Shown here: piece by piece, positions 43,881 through 64,000 of the stretch
How the letters are laid out: each line of letters opens with the position of its first letter
How positions within the stretch are numbered: the first letter of the stretch is position 1
Translations under genes and position numbers: made by a program
The notes under the pieces: model-generated
The model's input: only the letters and a program-made list of their open reading frames with translations
Database searches by the model: none
Told to the model about the DNA's origin: nothing
Assembly (NCBI RefSeq): GCF_029626105.1
Contig: NZ_JARUBH010000009.1
Location: forward strand, 7,062,011-7,126,010
Length of the DNA: 64,000 nt
Direction: 5' to 3'
Source of the DNA: Solwaraspora sp. WMMD792
Lineage (GTDB): Bacteria; Actinomycetota; Actinomycetes; Mycobacteriales; Micromonosporaceae

Positions 43881-44792
43881 CTAGCCGGCGACGGGGAACT
43901 CGACGCCGGTCAGCTTCTCGCTCTCCGTCCACAGCCGGCCAGCGGTGGCGGCGTTGTCGGCCGCCGGGCTGCGTCGCGCGGCGACCGGCGGGCCGACCGT
44001 CTCGAACCGTCGGCCCGGCCCCCAGTAGCTGCCACCGTCGACTGCCGGGTCGGTGGCGGCGCGCAGAGTCGGCAACGCCCCGTCGTGTGGCGTCATCGCG
44101 ATCAGCCGGCCGACGGCGGTGACGAAGCCACCGGTGTGCCGGGCCAGGTCGGTGGCGGTCCACCCGGGATGGGCGGCGGTGGCCAGCACCGGCGACCCGG
44201 CCCCGGTCAGCCGGCGCTGCAGTTCCAGGGTGAACAGCAGGTTGGCGAGTTTGCTCTGCCCGTACGCGCCCCACCGACGGTAGCGACGCTGTTGCCAGTT
44301 GAGGTCGGCGAAGTCGATCCGGCCGGCGCGGTGGGCGTTGCTGGCGACGGTGACCACCCGGGCGCCGACGCCGGTGGACAGCAGCAGCGGCAGCAGCCGG
44401 CCGGTGAGCGCGAAGTGGCCGAGATGGTTGGTGCCGAACTGCAGCTCGAAGCCCTGCCGGGTGCGCCGCAACGGGGTCAGCATCACCCCGGCGTTGTTGA
44501 TCAGCAGGTCGATCCGGCCGTGGTCGGCACGGTACGCCTCGGCGAACTCGGCCACCGAGTCGAGGTCGGCCAGGTCGAGCCGGGCGCAGCTCACCGTGCC
44601 AGTCGGCCGTTCGGCGCGGATCCGGTCGGCTGCGGTGCCGGCTCGTCCGTCGTCGCGGCAGGCGAGCACCACGTGGGCGCCCCGGGCGGCGAGCATCCGG
44701 GCGGTCTCGAAACCGATGCCGGAGTTCGCGCCGGTGACTACGGCGATCCGGCCGCTCTGGTCCGGCAGGTCGCCGAAGGTCCACGGTGTCAT
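43881..44792 (-). CDS. SDR oxidoreductase, retinol-dehydrogenase-like (paralogue 1)
   Basis: 303 residues. VVTGANSGIGFETARML cofactor motif, NNAGVM, LQFGTNHLGHFALTG and Y-x3-K as GAYGQSKLANLLF. Closely similar throughout to the SDR at 45379-46323 (same FELQFGTNHLGHFALTG block and same ending pattern), so the two are tandem paralogues with a TetR gene between them. GGGAG lies 5 nt before ATG 44792. Substrate unknown. Confidence 0.9.
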   Translation of the reverse strand: MTPWTFGDLPDQSGRIAVVTGANSGIGFETARMLAARGAHVVLACRDDGRAGTAADRIRAERPTGTVSCARLDLADLDSVAEFAEAYRADHGRIDLLINNAGVMLTPLRRTRQGFELQFGTNHLGHFALTGRLLPLLLSTGVGARVVTVASNAHRAGRIDFADLNWQQRRYRRWGAYGQSKLANLLFTLELQRRLTGAGSPVLATAAHPGWTATDLARHTGGFVTAVGRLIAMTPHDGALPTLRAATDPAVDGGSYWGPGRRFETVGPPVAARRSPAADNAATAGRLWTESEKLTGVEFPVAG

Positions 44793-44794
44793 CG

Positions 44795-45382
44795 TCACTC
44801 CCGGGCCAGGTTCTCGCCGCCGGCGAACACGATCGTCACGGCGGTCCGCATTCCGTTTCGGTACTCGTCGACCGACGAGAGCTTGTGTTTCAACCCGAAC
44901 GAGGCGGCGTGCAGATGCTCGGCCAGGTCCCGGGCGGACAGGCCGGCGGCCCGCCACCGGTCGGCGACCCCGCTGTCGGCGAGGACCTGCTCAACCCCGT
45001 CGACCAGCCCGCGCTCGATCCGCTCGGCCAGCGAGCAGCGCAGCGTGGCCGCGGTGGTCAGCAGCTCCTCGAAGTTGCCGTGCACCGCGGCCCCGACCGA
45101 TGGGCCCTGGCACGCTTCGAACGCGGCGAGGATCCGCCCCGGCGGGTCGAGGTCGTCGCGGGCGAAGGCGGCCCCGGTCGCCGCGCACACGCCGGTCACC
45201 ATCCGGTCCACGGCGGCGACGAACAGCTCGTCCTTGGTCTTGAAGTGCAGGTAGAGCCCTTGCCGGGAGATGTCGGCCGCGCGGGCCAGGTCGTCCATCG
45301 AGGTCTTCCGGAACCCGTACCGGATGAACACGTCGATCGCGGCGTCGGCGATGGTGTCCCGTCGGGTACTGCCCGACGTCAC
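44795..45382 (-). CDS. TetR-family regulator between paralogous SDR genes
   Basis: 195 residues. N-terminal TetR HTH: TIADAAIDVFIRYGFRKTSM, then DDLARAADISRQGLYLHFKTKDELF. The GTG start overlaps the stop of the upstream SDR (GTGA at 45379-45382), and its stop is 3 nt before the next SDR start, so all three are one coupled operon. It probably responds to a substrate or product of the SDRs and regulates this operon. Confidence 0.9.
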   Translation of the reverse strand: MTSGSTRRDTIADAAIDVFIRYGFRKTSMDDLARAADISRQGLYLHFKTKDELFVAAVDRMVTGVCAATGAAFARDDLDPPGRILAAFEACQGPSVGAAVHGNFEELLTTAATLRCSLAERIERGLVDGVEQVLADSGVADRWRAAGLSARDLAEHLHAASFGLKHKLSSVDEYRNGMRTAVTIVFAGGENLARE

Positions 45383-46323
45383 GCCGGGCGCTCCGTACGT
45401 CCCAGTGCCGAGAACGGGTACGCCACCCCGGTCAGCTGTTCGCTCTCGGACCACAGTCGGCTGGCCATGACGGTGTCCTTGGCCCGTGCGGAGCTGCGGG
45501 CCGGCGCGGGTGGCCCGGAGGTGCCGAACCGGCGGGCCGGACCCCAGTAGCTGCCGGCGGCGGCCTGCGGGTCGGTCGCGGCGCGCAGGCTGGGCAGCGC
45601 CCCGGCCGATGGTCGCATCCGAATCATCCGCTCGATCCGCGACCGGCTCTCGTCGGTGGACCGGCCCTGGTGGCGGCCGATCTCGGTCGAGGTCAGGCCG
45701 GGGTGGGCGGCGACGGCCCGCACGGTCGACCCGGCCTCGGTCAGCCGGCGCTGCAGTTCCAGGGTGAACAGCAGGTTGGCGAGTTTGCTCTGCCCGTACG
45801 CGGCCCACGGCCGGTAGCGGCGTTGCCGCCAGTTGAGGTCGTCGATGTCGATGCCGCCGGTCCAGTGGGCCAGGCTGGAGACGGTCACCACCCGGGCCGC
45901 CGGTGCCGCGTCGAGCAGCGGCAGCAGTTCGCCGGTGAGCGCGAAGTGCCCCAGATGGTTGGTGCCGAATTGCAGCTCGAAGCCCTGCCGGGTGCGTCCC
46001 AGCGGCGGTGCCATCACGCCGGCGTTGTTGATCAGCAGGTCGAGCCGGTCGTGGTCGGCGCGGTAGGCGTCGGCAAACGCGGTGACCGAGTCGAGGTCGG
46101 CCAGATCCAGCTCGGCCCCGGTCACCACGCCGGCCGGCTGACCGGCCCGAATCCGGTCCAGCGCCGCTTCGCCCTTGCCCTTGTCCCGGTACGTCAGCAC
46201 CACGTGTGCGCCCTTGCCGGCGAGCATCCGGGCGGTCTCGAAGCCGATGCCGGTGTTCGCCCCGGTCACCACCGCGACCCGGCCGGTCTGGTCGGGAATG
46301 TCATCGAATGACCATGCAGCCAC
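45379..46323 (-). CDS. SDR oxidoreductase, retinol-dehydrogenase-like (paralogue 2)
   Basis: 314 residues. VVTGANTGIGFETARML cofactor motif, NNAGVM, VSSLAHW (catalytic Ser), AAYGQSKLANLLF (Y-x3-K). First gene of the SDR-TetR-SDR operon. An 8-bp inverted repeat (ACTTGACA 46350-46357 and TGTCAAGT 46390-46397) lies in the upstream gap and may be the TetR site. Confidence 0.9.
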   Translation of the reverse strand: MAAWSFDDIPDQTGRVAVVTGANTGIGFETARMLAGKGAHVVLTYRDKGKGEAALDRIRAGQPAGVVTGAELDLADLDSVTAFADAYRADHDRLDLLINNAGVMAPPLGRTRQGFELQFGTNHLGHFALTGELLPLLDAAPAARVVTVSSLAHWTGGIDIDDLNWRQRRYRPWAAYGQSKLANLLFTLELQRRLTEAGSTVRAVAAHPGLTSTEIGRHQGRSTDESRSRIERMIRMRPSAGALPSLRAATDPQAAAGSYWGPARRFGTSGPPAPARSSARAKDTVMASRLWSESEQLTGVAYPFSALGRTERPA

Positions 46324-54411: not shown

Positions 54412-54430
54412 AGCCTCCGAGGAGGAGCGC

Positions 54431-57400
54431 GTGTCAGAGCCAGTCCGTGGAGATCTCCCCGTCGTCCGTACCGTCCTGACCAGTCTTGCCGCGTCGGCCG
54501 CTCAGCGCGCCGCAGCCGAACTGCCCCGCGACACCCGGCTGGTGCACCGCCGTGACGAACGCGAAGAACTCCTCGCCGGCCGGTTCGTCGACAGCCGCAC
54601 CGGGCTGACCCCGGCCCGCAGGGTCGGCCCGTTCCGCACCCCCGGCGGAGTCGACGTCTGGTACGAAACGTTCGTCGCCGCCCGCCGGCTCCAGGTCCGC
54701 GAGGCCGGCGCCGCCGCGCCCGCGTTCGTGGTCACCCAGGCCCGGCCGCCGACCGTGCAACGTACCGGCACCGTCGTCGACATCGAAGCCGGTACCGTCT
54801 GGATTCGCGGCGACCTGTTCGGCGGGCTGCCCGCCGACGCGTACGCCGGGCTGCTCGTCACCGGTGGGACGCTGACACTGGGCACCGCGACGGTATCGGG
54901 CGACGTCGTCGAGGTGCCCGCGCCGCTGAGCGCCGTACTGCGACTCGACCCCGCACCCGACCCGCCGCCGGCCGGCGGCGTCGGCGGCTGCCACAGCGCC
55001 GGGACCGCCAGCACACTGCCCACCTCGGTGACCTTCCGCTTCAAGTCCGGCGTGGTCGAGATCGTCGGCGACCCCGGGGCGGCCAAGGCCTGGGGGCAAC
55101 AGTTCCGGTTCGGCCCGGCCACCGGGGACTGGACGTTCGTCGAACAACTCTGGACGCTGGCGCTCGGCTACACCGCCGAACCGACCACGGTGGACGCAAC
55201 CCCGGTCGGTGCCGACCCGGCCGGCGACCCGTTGATCGACTTCACCGGCATCGGCGCCGTCCGCGACGCCGGGCTCGGCCTGCCGGTCGTCGTCGTCACC
55301 GACCCGACGATTCTCGGCGAGGCGTCGACCGCGGCGACCTGGCTGCTGCGGGTCACCGGCCTGGCCGCCCGCTGGTACGCCCCGGACCTGCGGGAACACC
55401 CGCTGGAGAGCGCGTGGATGGTGATCGGTGCGTCCGCCGCGACGGTACTCGCCGACCCGGTCACCCCGCTGGCGTCGCCGGTCGCCCATGGCATCCAGTT
55501 ATGGGCGATCGCCGGCGGGGGCGGGCACCGGCTGCCCTGGCGGCAGACCTACGACGAACCGTTCCGGCTGTACTACCGGTGCCACGCCGTCGACGGCGAG
55601 CACCTGATGGTCACCGGCCGCAGCGAGGTCGCCCTGGACCGGCCGGTGACCACCGCCGGGCAACCGGTGCCCACCCCGGGTGGTGCCGGCGCTCTGCTGC
55701 TGCACCGCCGCGACGGCGAGATCACCGTGCTGCTCGGCGCGGCGGTCCCGGTCGATGCCCGCAGCCACCACCAGTTCGCACTGCGCAACGCGCTGCTGTG
55801 GACCACCGTCCCGGCGTTCGTCTACGTCCGGGGCACCCTCGCCGGGTCGGCCGGGCCGACCGCCGACGGACCGCTGCCGGTCGACAACGGCACCGCCCAA
55901 CTGGCGTTCGGGCTGCACGCCTGGGCACCGACGCTGCCCGATCCGTACGTGTCCAATGGCGCCCTCGACCGGCCCCGGATCGGCCGGGAACCGCCACCGG
56001 CGGCGCTGGTCTGCCGGATCGTCTGGACCGCGCCGGCCGACGTGCGGGTCGAGTTCGACGGCCAGCTCGGGCCGGCGGTGGCGGTCACCGGCCGTCCGGC
56101 GTCACCGGGCACACCGCAGCCGCCGCCGAAGTCGTCCGGACCCGACATCGGGTTCAGCCAGGTCGAGCAGGGCCGCATCGGGCTGGACAAGAAGACCGAC
56201 GCGCAGTGGGACTCCGCCCGCCGGCTGGAGCTGGAACTGCGCGGCCAGCGGATTCAGGCCGCCGCCCGGTCCGACGCCACGTCCACCTCGATGGTCGACG
56301 GCTACCTGTCCGAGGTGGTCGGCCAGCCGCCGAACCTGCTGCTGCTGGACGTCTCCACCAACCAGGACCTGCTCGGCGTCGGGCTCGGCGTCGGCCCGAA
56401 CCACCCGGACACCGAGTACGCCGTTGCCGGGCTGGCCACCCGGGCCGAGGTCGGCGCGCTGCGGGTGACTGCGCTGCCGCAGGTGCAGTGGGAACCGGTG
56501 CGCACCCTCGACACCGACCAGGACATCATCACCCTCGGCTGGTTTCCCACCCCGCTCGCCTCGGCCACCGATGGCGGCGCCACCTCACTCGGTGCCCGGT
56601 CCCAGCGGCTCGTCCCGGTGGTGCCCGCCGACGCCGTGGCCGGCACCCTCGACGCGTTCGGCGACGGCACCCCGGTCGGGATGCGCACCACGTTCCCGTT
56701 CGGCCTGATCGCGGCGGTACTGGTCCAGCCGTACGACGACGGACCGCGCCCGGCGGACCTGCTCGGACTGACCCGCCCCGAGTTCGGTGACGCCCGGGGC
56801 GGCATCCAGATCACCGCGCGGGCCGAAGGCGGCCGGCCCGACGACGGCGGCGTGTCGGCCACCTTCGCCGGCCGGATGCGGCAACTGATCAACGGGGTGG
56901 ACCTGGCCAGCGGGGCCCCGCTCGGGCTGTCGGTGCTCGGCTCCACCGCCGACCCGAGCGGCAGTGTGGAGACCGTCTTCAACACCGACATGGCCACCGA
57001 CCCCCGGGTGCCGGTCACCCGGATCGACCTGTCCGGCTACGGCGGCTCCAGCTTCAGCGACTGGAACAACCCGTTCGCCGCGTTCGCTGAGGCGGCCAAG
57101 GTGCAGTTCCGGGTGATGATCGGCCGGACCGCGCTGGAGGTCGTCAAGGTCAACAGCGTGCTGCACCCGTGGGGCATCCGGGTGACCCGCTCGGTCACCG
57201 TGGAACGCCGCCCCGGCGGCGGGGTGATCCGCCGCGACAGCGGCTGGCAGCCGTTCACCCCGGGCCTGTTCGACTACCGCTACCTTGACGCGGGATCGAT
57301 CGCCGTCGCCCCGTACGTCTTCGATGCCGGGGTGTTCCGGGGCCTGTTCGACGTGCGCAACATCCGGCCGGCACCGGGTGCCGAGTTCGGCCACGGTGGC

Positions 57401-59092
57401 GCGCGGCTGGTGCCGTACCACTTCGACGCCGACCTCGCCCTCGACGGCGCCGCCGGGACGACACCGGCGACCGGGGTGCTCGGCTGGCTGCAGGTCGAGC
57501 CGAGCGGCGCGCCGGCCGCCCCGGCCGCGCTGCGGGCGTTGATCGAGGCGCAGGGGCCGGTCGGCGGGCCGATCGACACCGTCGTCGACGTCGGCGGCAG
57601 CGGCCTGCCGATGCGTGCCCAACGGATCGAGGTCGGCCTCGCCGACGACGCCGGCACCCCGGTGTTCGTGGCGACCGTCCGCGGCACCCCGCGACTGCCC
57701 CGTACCGGCTCCTGGTCCATGGTGGTCCGTCCGGTCGTCGGCGCACCGGCCGGTGGCGGCGAGGCGACCGCCGTCGCCGACACCCGTGGTACGCCGCTGA
57801 TCCGCCGCTACCCGGTCGGCTACCCGGCCAACGAGCTGCCGATCGGCGAGCCGCCGCTGGCCGGCACACCGGGGGAGTACCGGTTCGCCGACGCCGCCGA
57901 CCTGCTGCGGCCGACCGACCCGGCCACCGAGTACGCCTTCGTGCAGACCACCGCGACCCACGCGTTCCTGTTTCCCCGGCCGGTGGTGCCGGCACCCGGC
58001 GTGCCGCGTATCGAGTCGCGGCATCGGCCCGCGCTGGCCGACGTCCTGGCCCGGTCGACGTCCAAAGGGGCGTTCCCGCCGCCGCCGAACACCCTGGAGA
58101 CCGCGCCCGGCGCGCTGCACCTGGACGTCGGGGCGGGCGGCACGCTGGCGTTCAGCGCCGCGGTGACGTTCACCAACCCGCCGACCGCGCTGCAGCTGGG
58201 CGGTGCCCCCGGGCACGGATCGGCACTGCGTTACGACACGGCGACGCTGCGCCTGGAGGTCACCGAGGACCGCTGGTCGGCCGACTTCGCCGGACTGCGG
58301 GTCTGGACCGACGTGGCCGGCCTGGCCGAGCTGACCGGGTCCGAGCTGCACATCGTCGGCGGCACCGACCAGCGGCCGCAGGTCGCCCAGCTGCGGTCGT
58401 TGCTGCTCGCCGAGATCGAGCAGATCCTGCAGTACCTGCCGTTCGTCGGCGACCGGGGGGTGCAGGGTCCGATCGACCTGGCGGCGGCGAACGCCAAGCA
58501 CGAGCTGAAGTTCGAGACGAAGCTGAAGGTCGACCTGCCGGACACGGTCGTGCCGCTCGGCGACTACTTCAAGCTGAGCCTGGCGGTGGCGGTCAGCGCC
58601 GGGGTGAGCCTCACCGACGGCAAGGCCAAGGGAGGGGCAAGCCTCGGGATCGCCCTCGAAGGCAAGATCCCGGTGCTGTCGGTCGGCGTGGCGAAGGTCT
58701 TCGTCATCGTCTCCGGCAGCGTCACCTTCTCCATCGCCCTCGTCTCCGGCACGGTCACCAGCGAAAAACTGGAACTGGTCGCGTTCGCCGGCGTCGGGGT
58801 GCAGGGCCAGATCGGCCCGTTCAAGGCGTACGCGTTCCTGGGCATCGGTTTCGTGCTCGTCTACGACGCCATCGCCGGCCAGACCAAGTACGGCGGACTG
58901 GTCGCGCTGGAAGCCGGGGTGGACCTCAAGGTCGTCAAGGTCAAGATCCGGGCCGAGCTGAGAGGCCTGGTGTACGACGACGCCGGCACCACCAAGTGCG
59001 ACTACTCCGGATCGGTGAAGATTCAGGTCGATCTCTTCCTGATCCTTTCGATCAGCGCGTCCTACCAGGTCACCGAGACCGCTGCCCTGTGA
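54431..59092 (+). CDS. Giant protein of unknown function, 1,553 residues
   Basis: No signal peptide and no classical transmembrane helix. Most of the protein is a run of beta-rich, Ala/Gly/Pro/Thr-rich segments without recognised enzymatic motifs and with few cysteines (GGCHSAG, YRCHAVD, LVCRIVW, TKCDYSG). The last 195 residues differ: alternating hydrophobic, glycine-rich strands (KLSLAVAVSAGVSLTDG, ASLGIALEGKIPVL, KVFVIVSGSVTFSIALVSG, AYAFLGIGFVLVYDAI) that resemble amphipathic beta-hairpins of a barrel or fibre. GTG start with a strong ribosome site just upstream. The next gene starts 28 nt after the stop, so the two large proteins are co-expressed. No function is assigned. Confidence 0.85.
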   Translation: MSEPVRGDLPVVRTVLTSLAASAAQRAAAELPRDTRLVHRRDEREELLAGRFVDSRTGLTPARRVGPFRTPGGVDVWYETFVAARRLQVREAGAAAPAFVVTQARPPTVQRTGTVVDIEAGTVWIRGDLFGGLPADAYAGLLVTGGTLTLGTATVSGDVVEVPAPLSAVLRLDPAPDPPPAGGVGGCHSAGTASTLPTSVTFRFKSGVVEIVGDPGAAKAWGQQFRFGPATGDWTFVEQLWTLALGYTAEPTTVDATPVGADPAGDPLIDFTGIGAVRDAGLGLPVVVVTDPTILGEASTAATWLLRVTGLAARWYAPDLREHPLESAWMVIGASAATVLADPVTPLASPVAHGIQLWAIAGGGGHRLPWRQTYDEPFRLYYRCHAVDGEHLMVTGRSEVALDRPVTTAGQPVPTPGGAGALLLHRRDGEITVLLGAAVPVDARSHHQFALRNALLWTTVPAFVYVRGTLAGSAGPTADGPLPVDNGTAQLAFGLHAWAPTLPDPYVSNGALDRPRIGREPPPAALVCRIVWTAPADVRVEFDGQLGPAVAVTGRPASPGTPQPPPKSSGPDIGFSQVEQGRIGLDKKTDAQWDSARRLELELRGQRIQAAARSDATSTSMVDGYLSEVVGQPPNLLLLDVSTNQDLLGVGLGVGPNHPDTEYAVAGLATRAEVGALRVTALPQVQWEPVRTLDTDQDIITLGWFPTPLASATDGGATSLGARSQRLVPVVPADAVAGTLDAFGDGTPVGMRTTFPFGLIAAVLVQPYDDGPRPADLLGLTRPEFGDARGGIQITARAEGGRPDDGGVSATFAGRMRQLINGVDLASGAPLGLSVLGSTADPSGSVETVFNTDMATDPRVPVTRIDLSGYGGSSFSDWNNPFAAFAEAAKVQFRVMIGRTALEVVKVNSVLHPWGIRVTRSVTVERRPGGGVIRRDSGWQPFTPGLFDYRYLDAGSIAVAPYVFDAGVFRGLFDVRNIRPAPGAEFGHGGARLVPYHFDADLALDGAAGTTPATGVLGWLQVEPSGAPAAPAALRALIEAQGPVGGPIDTVVDVGGSGLPMRAQRIEVGLADDAGTPVFVATVRGTPRLPRTGSWSMVVRPVVGAPAGGGEATAVADTRGTPLIRRYPVGYPANELPIGEPPLAGTPGEYRFADAADLLRPTDPATEYAFVQTTATHAFLFPRPVVPAPGVPRIESRHRPALADVLARSTSKGAFPPPPNTLETAPGALHLDVGAGGTLAFSAAVTFTNPPTALQLGGAPGHGSALRYDTATLRLEVTEDRWSADFAGLRVWTDVAGLAELTGSELHIVGGTDQRPQVAQLRSLLLAEIEQILQYLPFVGDRGVQGPIDLAAANAKHELKFETKLKVDLPDTVVPLGDYFKLSLAVAVSAGVSLTDGKAKGGASLGIALEGKIPVLSVGVAKVFVIVSGSVTFSIALVSGTVTSEKLELVAFAGVGVQGQIGPFKAYAFLGIGFVLVYDAIAGQTKYGGLVALEAGVDLKVVKVKIRAELRGLVYDDAGTTKCDYSGSVKIQVDLFLILSISASYQVTETAAL

Positions 59093-59120
59093 CGACCCGG
59101 GCGGCGAAGAAGGCGGACAG

Positions 59121-62100
59121 ATGGCAACCTCGCACAAACTCACCCTGGTGCCGTACCTGCAGCGGTGGGACCACACCGGGCGGACGCTGACCGTACGGCT
59201 GCTGGTCGCCCCGGCCACCGACCCGCTCGCGCCGCTGCTCGCCGCCCCGGCGGGCGTGCCGGCCTTCGCCGACGCACATCTCGCGTTCGCGGTGTCCCTC
59301 TCGGACACCGTTGGGGCGCTGCCGCAGCGCGACCGGGTCGACCAGACCATCGCGTTGCCCGCCGCCCCGGCGACACTGCACGCCCCACACGCCCGGAGCA
59401 TCTTCACCGCGATCGGCGCGGCACTGGAGATCCCGCCCGGCCCGGCCGGCGACACGTTCGCCCCGCAACACCGCGACACCACCCGGCAACTGCGCAAGTA
59501 CCTGCCGGGCAGCTACCGCCGGTCGTTCGGGTTCGTCCGCCCGCGTACCTCGCTCGCCGTCACCGACGCCAGCTACCACTGCCTGATGACCTGCCCACCG
59601 GACCCGGCACCAGCGGTGCCGCCGACGGTGATCGGCTGGGGCGAGGCGATCGCGTACGCGCTGCGCCGCCCCCGGCTCGCCGAAGCCCTCGGCCTGGTCG
59701 TCGCCCTCGACGTGCCGATCGACGCCGACCCACGACTGGCCGCCGGCGGCTGGCTATGGGCCGACCTGGCCGCCCACAGCGACTACGCCGACGCCGTCGG
59801 CGCCGACCCGGGGCTGATCCGTGCCTTCGCCACCCGGGTACCGCCGCTGCCCGCCGCCGACACCCGGCCGGTCTTCACGCCGGTGGCGTTCCCGGTCAGC
59901 GCCGACGCCACCGAGGCCGGTACCCTCGGCAACTACGACAAGGTCTTCGCCGAGACGCTGCGCTTCGACGACGGCTTCGCCAAGATCGTGCACGCCCGGC
60001 AGCCGGTCAGCGCCGACCTGCTCGACGAGACCGGCGACGGCGCGCCGATCGCCCGCGACGAAGGTGTCCAACTCGGCTGGGACGACGAGGACGTCCTCGA
60101 AGGGCAGAACCGGGCGCTCGGCGCCCCACCCGACGGTGCGGATCCGGTGCTCGCCCCCCGCGGCGTGCTCGGCTACCGGGTCGACGTCCGGCCGGCCGGC
60201 GGCACCGACTGGACCTCGCTGTCCCTGGTGGACGCCCCGCTGGCCGTCGGCGTCGACCTGGGTACGGCCCGCGAGGAACGGTGGACCGAGGTCGCCCCGG
60301 CCGAACACAGCGGCCAGCTCTGGCTACCCGCCTGGTTCGTCCGCTGGCGTGGCGGGTCACTCGTCGTCGACACCGACGACGAGCAACGGCTGATGGAGGT
60401 GCCGCCCGGCCCACCGGAGCAGGCGGTGCCGGTCGACGCCGACACTGTGCTGCCCCGCTACGGCCAGGCGTACGAGTTCCGGGTCCGGCTCGCCGACCCC
60501 ACCGGTGGTGGCCCGCCGGTCGACGCCGCGCCGGGCCGGGTCGGCGAGGCACCGGTCGCGATGCTGCACCTGCGTCGGCACCGGCCGCCGGCCCGGGTCG
60601 GGCTGGACCCGTACACCGTGGAACCGGACGGCACCGTCGCGGCGCTGCGGGTGCACCGGCCGCGCCTGGGCTACCCGGAAGCGGTGTACGCCGCCGGCCC
60701 GGCCGCCCGCACCGACCTGCTCGCCCAGATCGCCGCCAACGACGCGGCGCCGCCGGAAGCGGTGACCGTGCCGGGCGTCGCCGACCCGGACGCCGTACTG
60801 CTGCAGGTCCGGGTGCTGCTGAAGGCCCCGGCGTTCGACCCGGCCGCCGACGCCGACGGGTACGTCGAGTGGTACACCACCACCCGGCTGTTTCCCGACG
60901 CCGCCACCGCCGCGCTCGACCTCGACCTGACCTGGGTCGACGCCGGTGACTACCGGTCGGTCGACGTCGCCGACCAGCTCGGCCCGGACGGGCTGGTGAC
61001 CGGCCCGGTCACCGTGGTCACCGGGCGGGACCTGCGGCTGGAGGTCCGAGCGATGGGCCGCGACGACCTCGGCTACTTCGGCAGCGACGCCGCCCGGCGT
61101 GGCCCTGCCGAGCTCATCGACCTGCACGGGACGGCCGACCCGGCGAGCGAAGCCGACCTGCTGCGCCCACTGCCACCGGCCGACAGCCTTCGGTCGGTGT
61201 TCCTACGCCCGGACCCGGCCGGCACGCCGGCGGCCGTGGCGGCCGTCGCCGCCCAGACCGCACCCACCCCGGCGTTGCTCGGCCGGCTGGCCGGCGCGCT
61301 CGACCTGGTCGCCGACGGGCCGACCCTGCTCGGTCCGCCGGGGGAGCGGGTGGTGTTCGGCTGCGCCGGGCTCGGTCACCACCTCGCCCCGGACGGCGGC
61401 AGCGTCGAGTTCGCCGATCCGACCGAACTCGCCGGGCGGTGGCTGCACGCCGTACAGACGGTGGTGGACCGGGACTGGACGTGGCGCGGCGCCGGCTCAC
61501 CGACGCTGACGGTGCGGCGCACCGTGCGACTGCCGGACGCCCCCAACGCGCCGCAGACCGTCACCGACGTCGGCGTGATCGAACTGGTCGACTCGGTCAA
61601 CGTGCAGGCCACCACCGGTGACACCGACCGCGGCTTCGTCCGGATGGTCTTCCTCGACGCGGTGGCGGCACCGCTGGGTCCCGACGGGCTGCCGTACGAG
61701 CCACAGGTCGACTACGAACTGGAGTTCCGCCTCGAGACCGGCGACGTGGTGCGACAGGTGATCTCGTCGAGGCTGCCGATCGTCACTGCGCCGAGGCAGG
61801 TGCCCCGGGTGGTCGCCGCCGGCATCGCGCTCACCCCGTACGGCACTGACGCGTCGTACGCGGCGACCACGCCCCGGATCCGGCGACTCTGGCTGGAGTT
61901 CGCCGAACCGCTGGCCGACCCGCGTGACGCCTACTTCGTCCGGCCGTTGACCGTCACCCCGGACCCGATGCTGCTGCCCGGCACCGAACCGGTCGCGGAC
62001 CCGGCCGCCGTGCCGACCCTGCCGCTGGACCCGGAACCGGTCCGGGTGATCACCCCGGGCCAGGTGCAGGACCTGGCCGGATACGCCACCATGCAGCGCC

Positions 62101-62762
62101 TCGAACCGGCGGCCGACAGCGACCGGCACTTCCTGGTGCCGCTGCCGCCGAACACCGACCCCGGCTCGCCGGAGCTGTTCTCGTTCTACACCTACGAGAT
62201 CCGCGTCGGCCATGACCGTGGCCCGCTCGACGATCCGCTCTGGTCCACCGCCCAGGGCCGGTACGGCGAGCCACTGACGTTGGAAGGGGTGGCGCATCCG
62301 GCACCGGAGCTGGCCGCCACGGTGCTCGCCGAACCGGACGGTGCGGTGCGGGTCCGGGCCCCGTACGCCGTCGCGTACCTCGGGCTGCGCCGGGTGTCGC
62401 CGGACCCGCCGAACACCCAGCTGTGGGCGGTGCTCTACGCCCGGGTGATGCAGGCCGACGCGGGTACCCGGCGCAACGTGCAGGTCGGCCTACGTCCGTT
62501 GTGGATACCCCGACGACAGCACGGTCCGCGTTCGGTGCCGTTGCCGGTGGAGGGGGAGACGACCTGGTCGGGGGCGGAGGTGCGGGCGGCGCTGGAGACG
62601 GCCGGGTTGCCGTCCGGGCTACCGGTCAGCGTGCTTGTCGTCGAGGTGCTGCCGGAGCCGAACGGGAGCTTCGCCGACCCGCTCGGCGGCGACCTGGGCC
62701 AGGTCCGGATCCTGCGGACGTCGCCGCTGTCCGCCGTCGACCGCGACTGCTGCGTACCGTGA
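59121..62762 (+). CDS. Giant partner protein of unknown function, 1,213 residues
   Basis: No signal peptide or membrane helix. It opens with LTLVPYLQRWDHTGRTLTVR and is mostly beta-rich with repeated short segments ending in Pro (several immunoglobulin-like-looking stretches such as GQAYEFRVRLADPTGG, VDYELEFRLETGDVVRQV and LFSFYTYEIRVGHDRG, which recall fibronectin-type strands). It ends in DRDCCVP. GAAGAAGG lies 8 nt before the ATG. It is the second gene of the unit with the 1,553-residue protein, and a strong terminator follows. No homologous domain is recognised by eye; a structural or adhesive role is possible but unproven. Confidence 0.85.
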   Translation: MATSHKLTLVPYLQRWDHTGRTLTVRLLVAPATDPLAPLLAAPAGVPAFADAHLAFAVSLSDTVGALPQRDRVDQTIALPAAPATLHAPHARSIFTAIGAALEIPPGPAGDTFAPQHRDTTRQLRKYLPGSYRRSFGFVRPRTSLAVTDASYHCLMTCPPDPAPAVPPTVIGWGEAIAYALRRPRLAEALGLVVALDVPIDADPRLAAGGWLWADLAAHSDYADAVGADPGLIRAFATRVPPLPAADTRPVFTPVAFPVSADATEAGTLGNYDKVFAETLRFDDGFAKIVHARQPVSADLLDETGDGAPIARDEGVQLGWDDEDVLEGQNRALGAPPDGADPVLAPRGVLGYRVDVRPAGGTDWTSLSLVDAPLAVGVDLGTAREERWTEVAPAEHSGQLWLPAWFVRWRGGSLVVDTDDEQRLMEVPPGPPEQAVPVDADTVLPRYGQAYEFRVRLADPTGGGPPVDAAPGRVGEAPVAMLHLRRHRPPARVGLDPYTVEPDGTVAALRVHRPRLGYPEAVYAAGPAARTDLLAQIAANDAAPPEAVTVPGVADPDAVLLQVRVLLKAPAFDPAADADGYVEWYTTTRLFPDAATAALDLDLTWVDAGDYRSVDVADQLGPDGLVTGPVTVVTGRDLRLEVRAMGRDDLGYFGSDAARRGPAELIDLHGTADPASEADLLRPLPPADSLRSVFLRPDPAGTPAAVAAVAAQTAPTPALLGRLAGALDLVADGPTLLGPPGERVVFGCAGLGHHLAPDGGSVEFADPTELAGRWLHAVQTVVDRDWTWRGAGSPTLTVRRTVRLPDAPNAPQTVTDVGVIELVDSVNVQATTGDTDRGFVRMVFLDAVAAPLGPDGLPYEPQVDYELEFRLETGDVVRQVISSRLPIVTAPRQVPRVVAAGIALTPYGTDASYAATTPRIRRLWLEFAEPLADPRDAYFVRPLTVTPDPMLLPGTEPVADPAAVPTLPLDPEPVRVITPGQVQDLAGYATMQRLEPAADSDRHFLVPLPPNTDPGSPELFSFYTYEIRVGHDRGPLDDPLWSTAQGRYGEPLTLEGVAHPAPELAATVLAEPDGAVRVRAPYAVAYLGLRRVSPDPPNTQLWAVLYARVMQADAGTRRNVQVGLRPLWIPRRQHGPRSVPLPVEGETTWSGAEVRAALETAGLPSGLPVSVLVVEVLPEPNGSFADPLGGDLGQVRILRTSPLSAVDRDCCVP

Positions 62763-62817
62763 CGCCGACCGTCCGCCAGGGCAGGCGGCGGGGTGGGCGG
62801 TGCCGGTCCGGTAGGAG

Positions 62818-62874
62818 CGGAGTCCCCGGGCCCGGGCAGCCGTCGGCGTCGACTGCCCGGGCCCAGGGACTCCG
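62818..62874. terminator. Strong bidirectional terminator, 22-bp stem
   Basis: The arms 62818-62839 and 62853-62874 pair with a single mismatch across a 13-nt loop, midway in the 123-nt gap between the second giant gene and the convergent GH43-like gene. Confidence 0.9.
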
Positions 62875-62885
62875 CTGGTTCGTGG

Positions 62886-64000
62886 TCAGCCCGCCGTGCA
62901 GGTGACGTTGCCGGGTAGCTGACTCGCACCGCTGGCCGATGTGATGAAGCCTGCGGTGGTCGAAGATCCGGCGGACAGCTGGCCGTTGTAGCTGGCGTTG
63001 GTCACCGTCACCTGGCTGCCCTGCTGGCTGAACGTTCCGCTCCAGCCCTGGGCGACGGTCTGCCCGGCGGGCAGGGTGAAGGTCACCCGCCAGCCGTCGA
63101 TGGCGGTGGAGGTGCTGTTGGTGACCGTCAGCCGCCCCTCGTAGCCGCCCGGCCAGGACGCCGGTGCCGACACGGTTGCCGTGCAGGACGACCCAGGTGT
63201 GGTCGGCGGGGCGGTGGTCGGCGGCGCCGTTGTCGGTGGTGGCGTCGTCGGTGGTGGCGTCGTCGGTGGCGCCGTCGTGGGTGGCGGGCTGGTCGGCGGC
63301 GGGGCGGTGCCGGTGTTGAACTGCCACCAGTCGACGTTGAGCAGGTAGCCGCTGCCACCGGTGAACCGTAAGTACAGATCGTGGGTGCCGGAGGCTCCGG
63401 TGACCGGGCAGGAGACACTGGTCCAGCTCTGCCAGCCGCCGGTGCCGGGCACGTCGCAGGTGCCGACCCGGGTGCCGGTCGGGCCGCCGAGTCGCAGCTC
63501 GATGCTCCCGCCGCTGGAGTCAGCGGCCACCCGCGCCGTGAACGACGCCGCCCCGGCGCCGAAGGCAACGCCCTTCACCTTGATGTAGTCGCCGTTCTCG
63601 ATCCAGCCGACGTTCATGGTGCCCTCGCTGGACCGCTCTGTTTCGATCCCGGCCGACCAGGCGACCGTCTCGGCCTCCTGACGGACGTACGGGTTCAGCG
63701 TGCCGATCTGCGGGGCGCCCGCCGTGGTCATGTTCATCGTCGGAATCGTGCCGTCGGCACGGTAGCTGAACTTCTCCACCGCGACGGAACGGGTGAATCC
63801 ACCGCCGCCGGGCAGTGCGCCGTTGTGGTAGAAGAAGTACGAGCCACCGGCGAAGTCGATGACGCCGGGGTGGTTGGTGAAGCTGCCGCCCTGTCGCGGC
63901 ATCACCGTACCCCGGTAGGTCCACGGGCCGGTCGGTCCGGGAGCCGTCGAGTAACCGATGAACTCGGAGCAGCATTCGGCGGCGAAGACGTTGTAGTAGA
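62886..64000 (-). CDS. GH43-like secreted glycosidase with CBM6-like and CBM2 modules (partial)
   Basis: 3' part of a gene that starts beyond the right edge; 371 codons plus the stop are visible in an open frame. Visible order: end of a five-bladed GH43-type catalytic domain (FIGYSTAPGPTGPW, FTNHPGVIDFAGGSYFFYHNG), a CBM6-type domain (QEAETVAWSAGIETE, GWIENGDYIKVKGVAFG, YLLNVDWWQFNTG), a PPTT-repeat linker, and a C-terminal CBM2 (SCTATVSAPASWPGG to NVTCTAG). Enzymes of this layout are arabinofuranosidases or xylosidases acting on plant xylan. The catalytic residues lie outside the window. Confidence 0.88.
   Translation of the reverse strand, partial: YYNVFAAECCSEFIGYSTAPGPTGPWTYRGTVMPRQGGSFTNHPGVIDFAGGSYFFYHNGALPGGGGFTRSVAVEKFSYRADGTIPTMNMTTAGAPQIGTLNPYVRQEAETVAWSAGIETERSSEGTMNVGWIENGDYIKVKGVAFGAGAASFTARVAADSSGGSIELRLGGPTGTRVGTCDVPGTGGWQSWTSVSCPVTGASGTHDLYLRFTGGSGYLLNVDWWQFNTGTAPPPTSPPPTTAPPTTPPPTTPPPTTAPPTTAPPTTPGSSCTATVSAPASWPGGYEGRLTVTNSTSTAIDGWRVTFTLPAGQTVAQGWSGTFSQQGSQVTVTNASYNGQLSAGSSTTAGFITSASGASQLPGNVTCTAG

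Follow-up and report, generated by a model that had tools for sequence, protein, structure and literature searches.

Within a stretch of 64,000 nucleotides (nt) from Solwaraspora sp. WMMD792 (contig NZ_JARUBH010000009.1, positions 7,062,011 to 7,126,010 of the forward strand), which as a whole is called the window here, two neighbouring genes encode the giant proteins P1 and P2. They form a coding unit of about 8.3 kb that is under purifying selection, occurs in records of eight phyla (judged by the record titles) and is unnamed in the family libraries searched. The pair is almost certainly a real functional unit. With a probability of roughly 0.4, we favour the reading that P1 and P2 form one large beta-rich complex, which is active at the cell surface or beyond it and is exported in the folded state by a non-Sec route.

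An earlier note on this DNA had described two giant genes of 1,553 and 1,213 codons without a recognisable function. The pair proved real, and no known family was found for it. The open reading frames were confirmed with a spacing of 28 nt, and the GC content at third codon positions was 0.92 for P1, 0.92 for P2 and 0.95 for the adjoining ThuA gene. When the genes were compared with those of four congeners, the ratio of nonsynonymous to synonymous substitution rates (dN/dS) was 0.22-0.37 for P1 and 0.23-0.34 for P2; purifying selection acts on both.

Known families were searched for in several libraries. Pfam and NCBIfam contained no family for P1 or P2 at E ≤ 1, and the PDB sequences gave no match for either at E ≤ 10. 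The family profiles of P2 and P1 each found one insignificant match in the PDB (E 0.6 and 1.8, respectively), and among the PHROGs P1 had chance-level matches only (0.092 and 0.66) and P2 none. When 27 P1 and 26 P2 family members were compared with Pfam at E ≤ 0.1, five families appeared, each weakly and with a single member, and porin families were matched by none of the 27 P1 members. Literature searches, which say little about subscription journals, found no account of the pair. A profile comparison of P1 with P2 gave no homology between the two (probability 0.2).

Distribution and joint inheritance of the pair

The co-occurrence of the two genes was tested by scanning species genomes with the P2 alignment. 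This gave 261 stretches, 160 of which encoded relatives; the best 80 of these 160 were kept and, together with three plasmid loci, make up a set of 83 loci, in which L013 and L025 represent one and the same locus. P2 is present in all 83, since the loci were chosen by it, and in 80 of them P1 immediately precedes it on that strand. The three loci without P1 (L040, L073, L094) are truncated by the edge of the contig, so that their sequence begins within P2; in two of these genomes P1 was located on another contig and in the third (L073) it was not found. The gap between the genes, measured in 77 frame pairs, ranged from -137 to 764 nt and was 60 nt or less in 64 of them. A frame of 2,889 residues in L058 was considered as a P1-P2 fusion and rejected as a shadow frame, the true genes being separate. 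Among named organisms, Micromonospora endolithica has the proteins closest to both P1 and P2; since the pair crosses phyla, this says little about the kinship of the hosts.

On plasmids, tblastn detected P1 in three records and P2 in four, the hosts being Tistrella, Candidatus Chlorohelix and Microvirga (one record for P1, two for P2). The genes are adjacent in three of these records and the fourth contains the end of P2 only. On two of the plasmids, those of Tistrella and Chlorohelix (L013, L015), a catalase or catalase-peroxidase gene is close to P1 and P2, an association that was not seen generally.

To look for a third partner, 1,114 mechanically called frames of the 83 loci were clustered all against all. 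Only the P1 and P2 families spanned most genera. The next clusters, with at most 13 loci, were rejected as partners: for the most part they represent synteny conserved within Algoriphagus, and one of them, component 17, consists of P1 read in antisense. The nearest neighbours were analysed in 67 loci, leaving out the duplicate L025 and 15 loci of Algoriphagus or near relatives. Neighbouring frames, some of which may be shadows in GC-rich genomes, lay on the strand of the pair in 28 of 51 cases upstream and 27 of 58 downstream, in keeping with chance (binomial p 0.58 and 0.69). Their Pfam families were scattered; among the 25 of 110 families shown, the LuxR-type helix-turn-helix was the commonest (5 of 109) and the only one in more than two. 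One flanking frame is a type 2A encapsulin shell protein. The earlier note had proposed to check whether the pair co-occurs elsewhere and has a third partner. The pair is conserved far outside the strain and no third gene recurs with it; neither a match to a characterised family nor a lack of co-occurrence in other strains, the two outcomes named as speaking against the note, was found.

Whether the genes travel together was examined with a quick tree of 66 P2 proteins, from which plasmid loci and loci with less than 85% coverage of either profile were dropped. The phylum labels required 16 changes on this tree, the minimum possible being 7; the labels are those of the record titles, and misbinned contigs of metagenome-assembled genomes may account for some of the changes. 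The Micromonospora P2 grouped with those of a planctomycete and an acidobacterium. The pairwise identities of P1 and P2 were correlated with a Spearman coefficient of 0.93 over 2,211 pairs, and none of 1,000 permutations reached this value. P1 and P2 are inherited jointly and are horizontally mobile across phyla as a two-gene unit.

Within the genus, both genes are intact in five of seven genomes, and in these five the block of ThuA, P1, P2 and a carbohydrate-binding protein is preserved. One genome (G001) has neither P1 nor P2 and no close orthologue of either flanking gene. In another (G005), P1 residues 1-335 and P2 residues 694-1212 remain close together (loci L006 and L012), which points to an internal loss; this genome has ThuA and lacks the carbohydrate-binding protein. 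The pair seems to be dispensable in that species. P1 as a single-sequence query had no match in 54 further genomes, which belong to the same family and order.

Predicted structures of P1 and P2

The AlphaFold2 model of P1 covers residues 354-1553, so that model residue 1 is P1 residue 354, with a mean predicted local distance difference test (pLDDT) of 85.2 and a predicted template modelling score (pTM) of 0.71. Foldseek with the whole model against the PDB gave low template modelling (TM) scores and long, poor alignments, which were uninformative. A Foldseek search of viral structures gave low-TM matches only, some of them to outer-membrane-like barrels. The C-terminal region was searched separately by a second structural alignment (VIA-align), which covers the listed folds only. 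Residues 1353-1553 aligned to NanC (Z 13.0, root-mean-square deviation (rmsd) 3.7, 158 residues aligned), KdgM (Z 12.8) and EspP (Z 12.6, rmsd 4.4, 168 aligned), a structural match of a region whose pLDDT is modest (about 53-86 when averaged by tens). The end of P1 is thus predicted as a closed beta-barrel of ten amphipathic strands, in line with the barrel-like module of alternating strands that had been proposed for the last 195 or so residues.

All ten strands, 11-21 residues long, have a hydrophobic and a polar face with a mean hydropathy of +2.07 and -1.23, respectively. Over 19 residues, hydropathy in P1 is highest in a stretch that starts at residue 1420 (mean 2.09) and also lies within predicted beta strands. 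Column entropy in the barrel was lower on the hydrophobic face (1.80) than on the polar face (2.35), and the rest of P1 showed the same direction (1.87 versus 2.53). The better conservation of the hydrophobic face leans towards a buried face, in a comparison made within P1. Against the three nearer congeners the barrel had a dN/dS of 0.12-0.16 and the whole of P1 0.22-0.30, the barrel being more conserved. In the congener G003 (L005, compared over window positions 58502-59086), the barrel was 74% identical with a dN/dS of 0.60, the whole protein 81% with 0.37, as if the module had been replaced or were under diversification.

The P2 model comprises residues 14-1213 (mean pLDDT 87.4, pTM 0.61). 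Foldseek matched it to the fibronectin fragments 1fnf (E 2.2e-6) and 6xay (E 2.1e-5), both with a probability of 1.00. By E-value the best chain was human A2ML1 (4.2e-8), and other beta-sandwich chains matched too. The single-chain Z scores did not exceed 8.2, which is about the stated noise level of the tool. In sequence, a stretch of the P2 profile weakly matched FN3con (E 0.6), and Pfam FN3 was not matched at E ≤ 1. A 63-row alignment contained many invariant residues that are specific to the P2 family. P2 is predicted to be a chain of fibronectin-III-like domains, which agrees with the fibronectin-like strands noticed earlier.

Export signals and possible roles

The N-termini were inspected for signals of the twin-arginine translocation (Tat) pathway and for signal peptides, the latter judged by hydropathy only. 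In their first 80 residues, P1 and P2 of the window show neither a Tat motif nor any strongly hydrophobic stretch, the top 19-residue hydropathy there being 0.91 for P1; the absence of export signals stated in the earlier note was thus confirmed. In the branch of the family to which the window belongs, no Tat-like N-terminus was found among 62 P1 and 78 P2 proteins. A hydrophobic N-terminal stretch was seen in two of the 62 P1 proteins, both times upstream of the likely methionine start. This branch was also screened, in 88 P1 and 85 P2 frames, by a fixed rule that demands a twin-arginine motif followed by a hydrophobic stretch above a hydropathy cut-off of 1.2; the only matches, five in number, were internal, and none lay at an N-terminus. 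With regard to the host machinery, the genome of the window (7.4 Mb, completeness 100) encodes TatC (E 9.3e-65) and has no match to Omp85/BamA (PF01103), which was matched in 7 of 14 control genomes.

More distant relatives were found when the P2 profile was run against 296 genomes of the phylum. Seven matched: the window's own genome, one further genome of its branch (G147), which carries P1 as well, and five distant ones. All five have a second large frame just upstream of the P2-like gene. A profile of these five P2 proteins matched 15 of 396 genomes, including the window's genome (E 6.3e-6) and G147 (E 2.9e-4). Of the other 13, one (G376) had a short frame and was left out, and the remaining 12 together with one IMG/VR contig form a sister set; two further family searches, which covered 5 and 35 genomes, added none to it. 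A P1-like gene lies upstream of the P2-like gene in all 12 genomes and in the contig, divided into two frames in L140. Profile-profile comparison of the two branches gave a probability of 98.4 (E 9e-15, 402 columns) for P2 and of 95.4 (E 1.6e-8, 249 columns) for the barrel region of P1. The barrel region was also the only part that the window-branch P1 profile matched in the sister set, namely in two of the 12 genomic P1s and in that of the contig (E 4.7e-8, 1.5e-4 and 2e-6). At the level of sequence profiles, the homology of the sister pair to the window's pair was confirmed for both genes. The IMG/VR contig (L175, 16.7 kb), the only one found with the sister-branch profile, is classed as viral; this label is doubtful because the only other frame read on 8.8 kb of it looks lipoprotein-like.

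In the sister branch, the fixed rule found a Tat-like N-terminus in 4 of 13 P1s (L107, L108, L140, L145), where the true start of L107 and L140 must lie downstream of the mechanical start. L109 has the motif, but its hydrophobic stretch, at 1.01, stays just below the cut-off of 1.2; by eye this N-terminus looks Tat-like. In L108, three cell-wall-binding stretches (PF04122, 2e-46) make up the end of P2, for which no signal was seen by eye; this P2 could therefore reach the wall only with a partner or by some other route. The surface structure exported by a non-Sec route, one of the two possibilities suggested in the earlier note, is supported only indirectly, by the distant sister branch, and no signal for it was found in the window's own branch.

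In the reading that we favour, P1 and P2 would be obligate subunits of one almost wholly beta-structured complex (about 290 kDa if 1:1, from computed masses of 161.7 and 128.7), encoded by a self-contained, horizontally moving two-gene unit. The P2 chain would serve as a stalk or scaffold and P1 as the beta-rich body, whose terminal amphipathic barrel-like module may dock to a membrane or a hydrophobic ligand. After synthesis and folding in the cytosol, the complex would act at the cell surface or beyond it; the Tat-type signal of some sister-branch P1s would bring the signal-less P2 along. From the sister branch we infer that action at the surface is more likely than action inside the cell. 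Pairing was observed for the genes, and the physical complex as well as its export in the window's branch are presumed.

Several points weigh against this reading. No export signal is present in any window-branch N-terminus examined, 8 of the 13 sister P1s have no Tat signal even when L109 is counted, and the cell-wall repeats occur in one sister P2 only. The P1 barrel was modelled with modest confidence from a family-only alignment, and its likeness to outer-membrane barrels would indicate a shape and not a function. Residues 1-353 of P1 lie outside the model, and the contact between P1 and P2 is an assumption of the reading. Fibronectin-III-like folds also occur in cytosolic and phage proteins, and several Foldseek matches of P2 are non-surface proteins. 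Because the genome has no Omp85, an ordinary outer-membrane role of the barrel is unlikely here.

The main rival, possible although on the unlikely side, is a P1-P2 complex that is not exported in this branch and remains in the cytosol, with a soluble barrel whose hydrophobic face is turned inward around a lipid or another hydrophobic cargo. The window-branch N-termini and the missing Omp85 are consistent with this, as is the better-conserved hydrophobic face, which is expected of a buried core and is shared by the rest of P1. The low entropy of hydrophobic columns may however have trivial causes in this comparison within P1, and the Tat-like signals and cell-wall repeats of the sister branch argue for export. 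We consider it unlikely that P1 and P2 attack membranes as a weapon or in defence, with a P1 barrel that would insert into a target membrane and with P2 as its carrier or targeting arm. The predicted outer-membrane-like fold, the patchy and mobile distribution that includes plasmids, and the diverged barrel of G003 would fit such a role. However, the barrel is more conserved than the whole of P1 in the three nearer congeners, and no third gene recurs that might confer immunity; a pore-former without immunity must be kept inactive, and nothing was seen for that. PADLOC, in a scan of 26 P2-family members that covered P2 only, gave one weak match to ZorC in a single member (E 0.0074).

Phage tails commonly contain large proteins that are rich in beta structure and in fibronectin domains, a T5 tail-tip chain was among the structure matches of P2, and one sister pair is on the contig classed as viral. 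Structural parts of a phage tail or contractile injection system are nevertheless disfavoured and very improbable: because no third gene recurs at the loci, there is no sheath, tube or baseplate set. In addition, pattern scans of viral contigs with the window-branch P1 and P2 profiles found no relative, a phage collection searched with P1 contained none, and no PHROG match was significant. A more far-reaching idea, which we regard as improbable, is a mobile two-component machine in which an outer-membrane-type barrel on a giant cytosol-made protein is kept soluble by its fibronectin-like partner and delivered to the membrane without Sec or the barrel assembly machinery, in bacteria with one or two membranes. 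If the favoured complex is indeed exported with a membrane-type barrel from a cell without BamA, it would raise the question of how such barrels can fold and reach their destination when the usual machinery is absent. Even on a modest reading, P1 and P2 are a clean and testable gene pair.

The locus and related systems

The features of the locus are collected in the table. The hairpin downstream of P2 has a folding energy of -62.9 kcal/mol (z -4.75, none of 200 shuffles as stable) and sits between P2 and the convergent gene, whose end is at 62886. Of the strong terminator in the earlier note, the strong hairpin was confirmed; it has no U-run, and a scan for the consensus terminator pattern does not list it. 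The convergent neighbour (62886-63905, minus strand) contains CBM_6 and CBM_2 domains, and its protein has 66 matches in the genome, many of them to its CBM_2 end. Farther upstream (43881-46323), two similar short-chain-dehydrogenase-like genes flank a TetR-like regulator, an arrangement that was read by eye from the translations and resembles a duplication.

Table. Features of the P1-P2 locus, in window positions
Feature	Position	Strand	Description or basis
P1 likely ribosome-binding site, AGGAGGAG	54420..54427	+	sequence
P1	54431..59092	+	open reading frame, GTG start, 1,553 aa (amino acids); giant beta-rich protein (predicted), first gene of pair
P1 residues 587-630, long 44-residue predicted helix	56189..56320	+	AlphaFold2 model residues 234-277
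P1 residues 1358-1552, amphipathic module of ten strands at the C-terminus, predicted to close as a beta-barrel	58502..59086	+	AlphaFold2 model residues 1005-1199
P2	59121..62762	+	open reading frame, ATG start, 1,213 aa; predicted fibronectin-type-III-like domain string, second gene
Strong hairpin, probable terminator without U-run	62816..62876	.	RNA fold, between P2 and convergent gene

Judged by the empty library matches and the literature searches, the P1-P2 system would be categorically new, although built from folds of known kinds, and none of the known systems compared shares all its defining traits with the pair. Contractile injection systems and phage tails differ in that no sheath, tube or baseplate genes recur in the 83 loci. 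The outer-membrane barrels NanC/KdgM and EspP share the predicted shape of P1 residues 1353-1553; the structural-alignment identity is only 8-10%, and P1 has no Pfam match, in particular none to a porin or outer-membrane protein (E ≤ 1) such as would be expected of a KdgM/NanC porin. Autotransporters likewise have a beta-rich body followed by a C-terminal barrel. Unlike them, P1 has no Sec signal peptide (by hydropathy only) and its host no Omp85/BamA. The translocator barrel of autotransporters has 12 strands; the P1 model has ten long strands, of modest pLDDT, and aligns with that of EspP at Z 12.6. Proteins with fibronectin type III domains resemble P2 through the matches to the multi-domain fragments 1fnf and 6xay, but P2 has no Pfam FN3 match, low Z scores and invariant residues of its own. 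Complexes in which a partner without a signal is carried through the Tat pathway as a hitchhiker are also known. The window's pair differs from these by having no Tat motif, and the likeness is confined to the sister branch, where some P1s carry a Tat-like signal and, in L108, such a P1 is paired with a cell-wall-binding P2 for which no signal was seen by eye.

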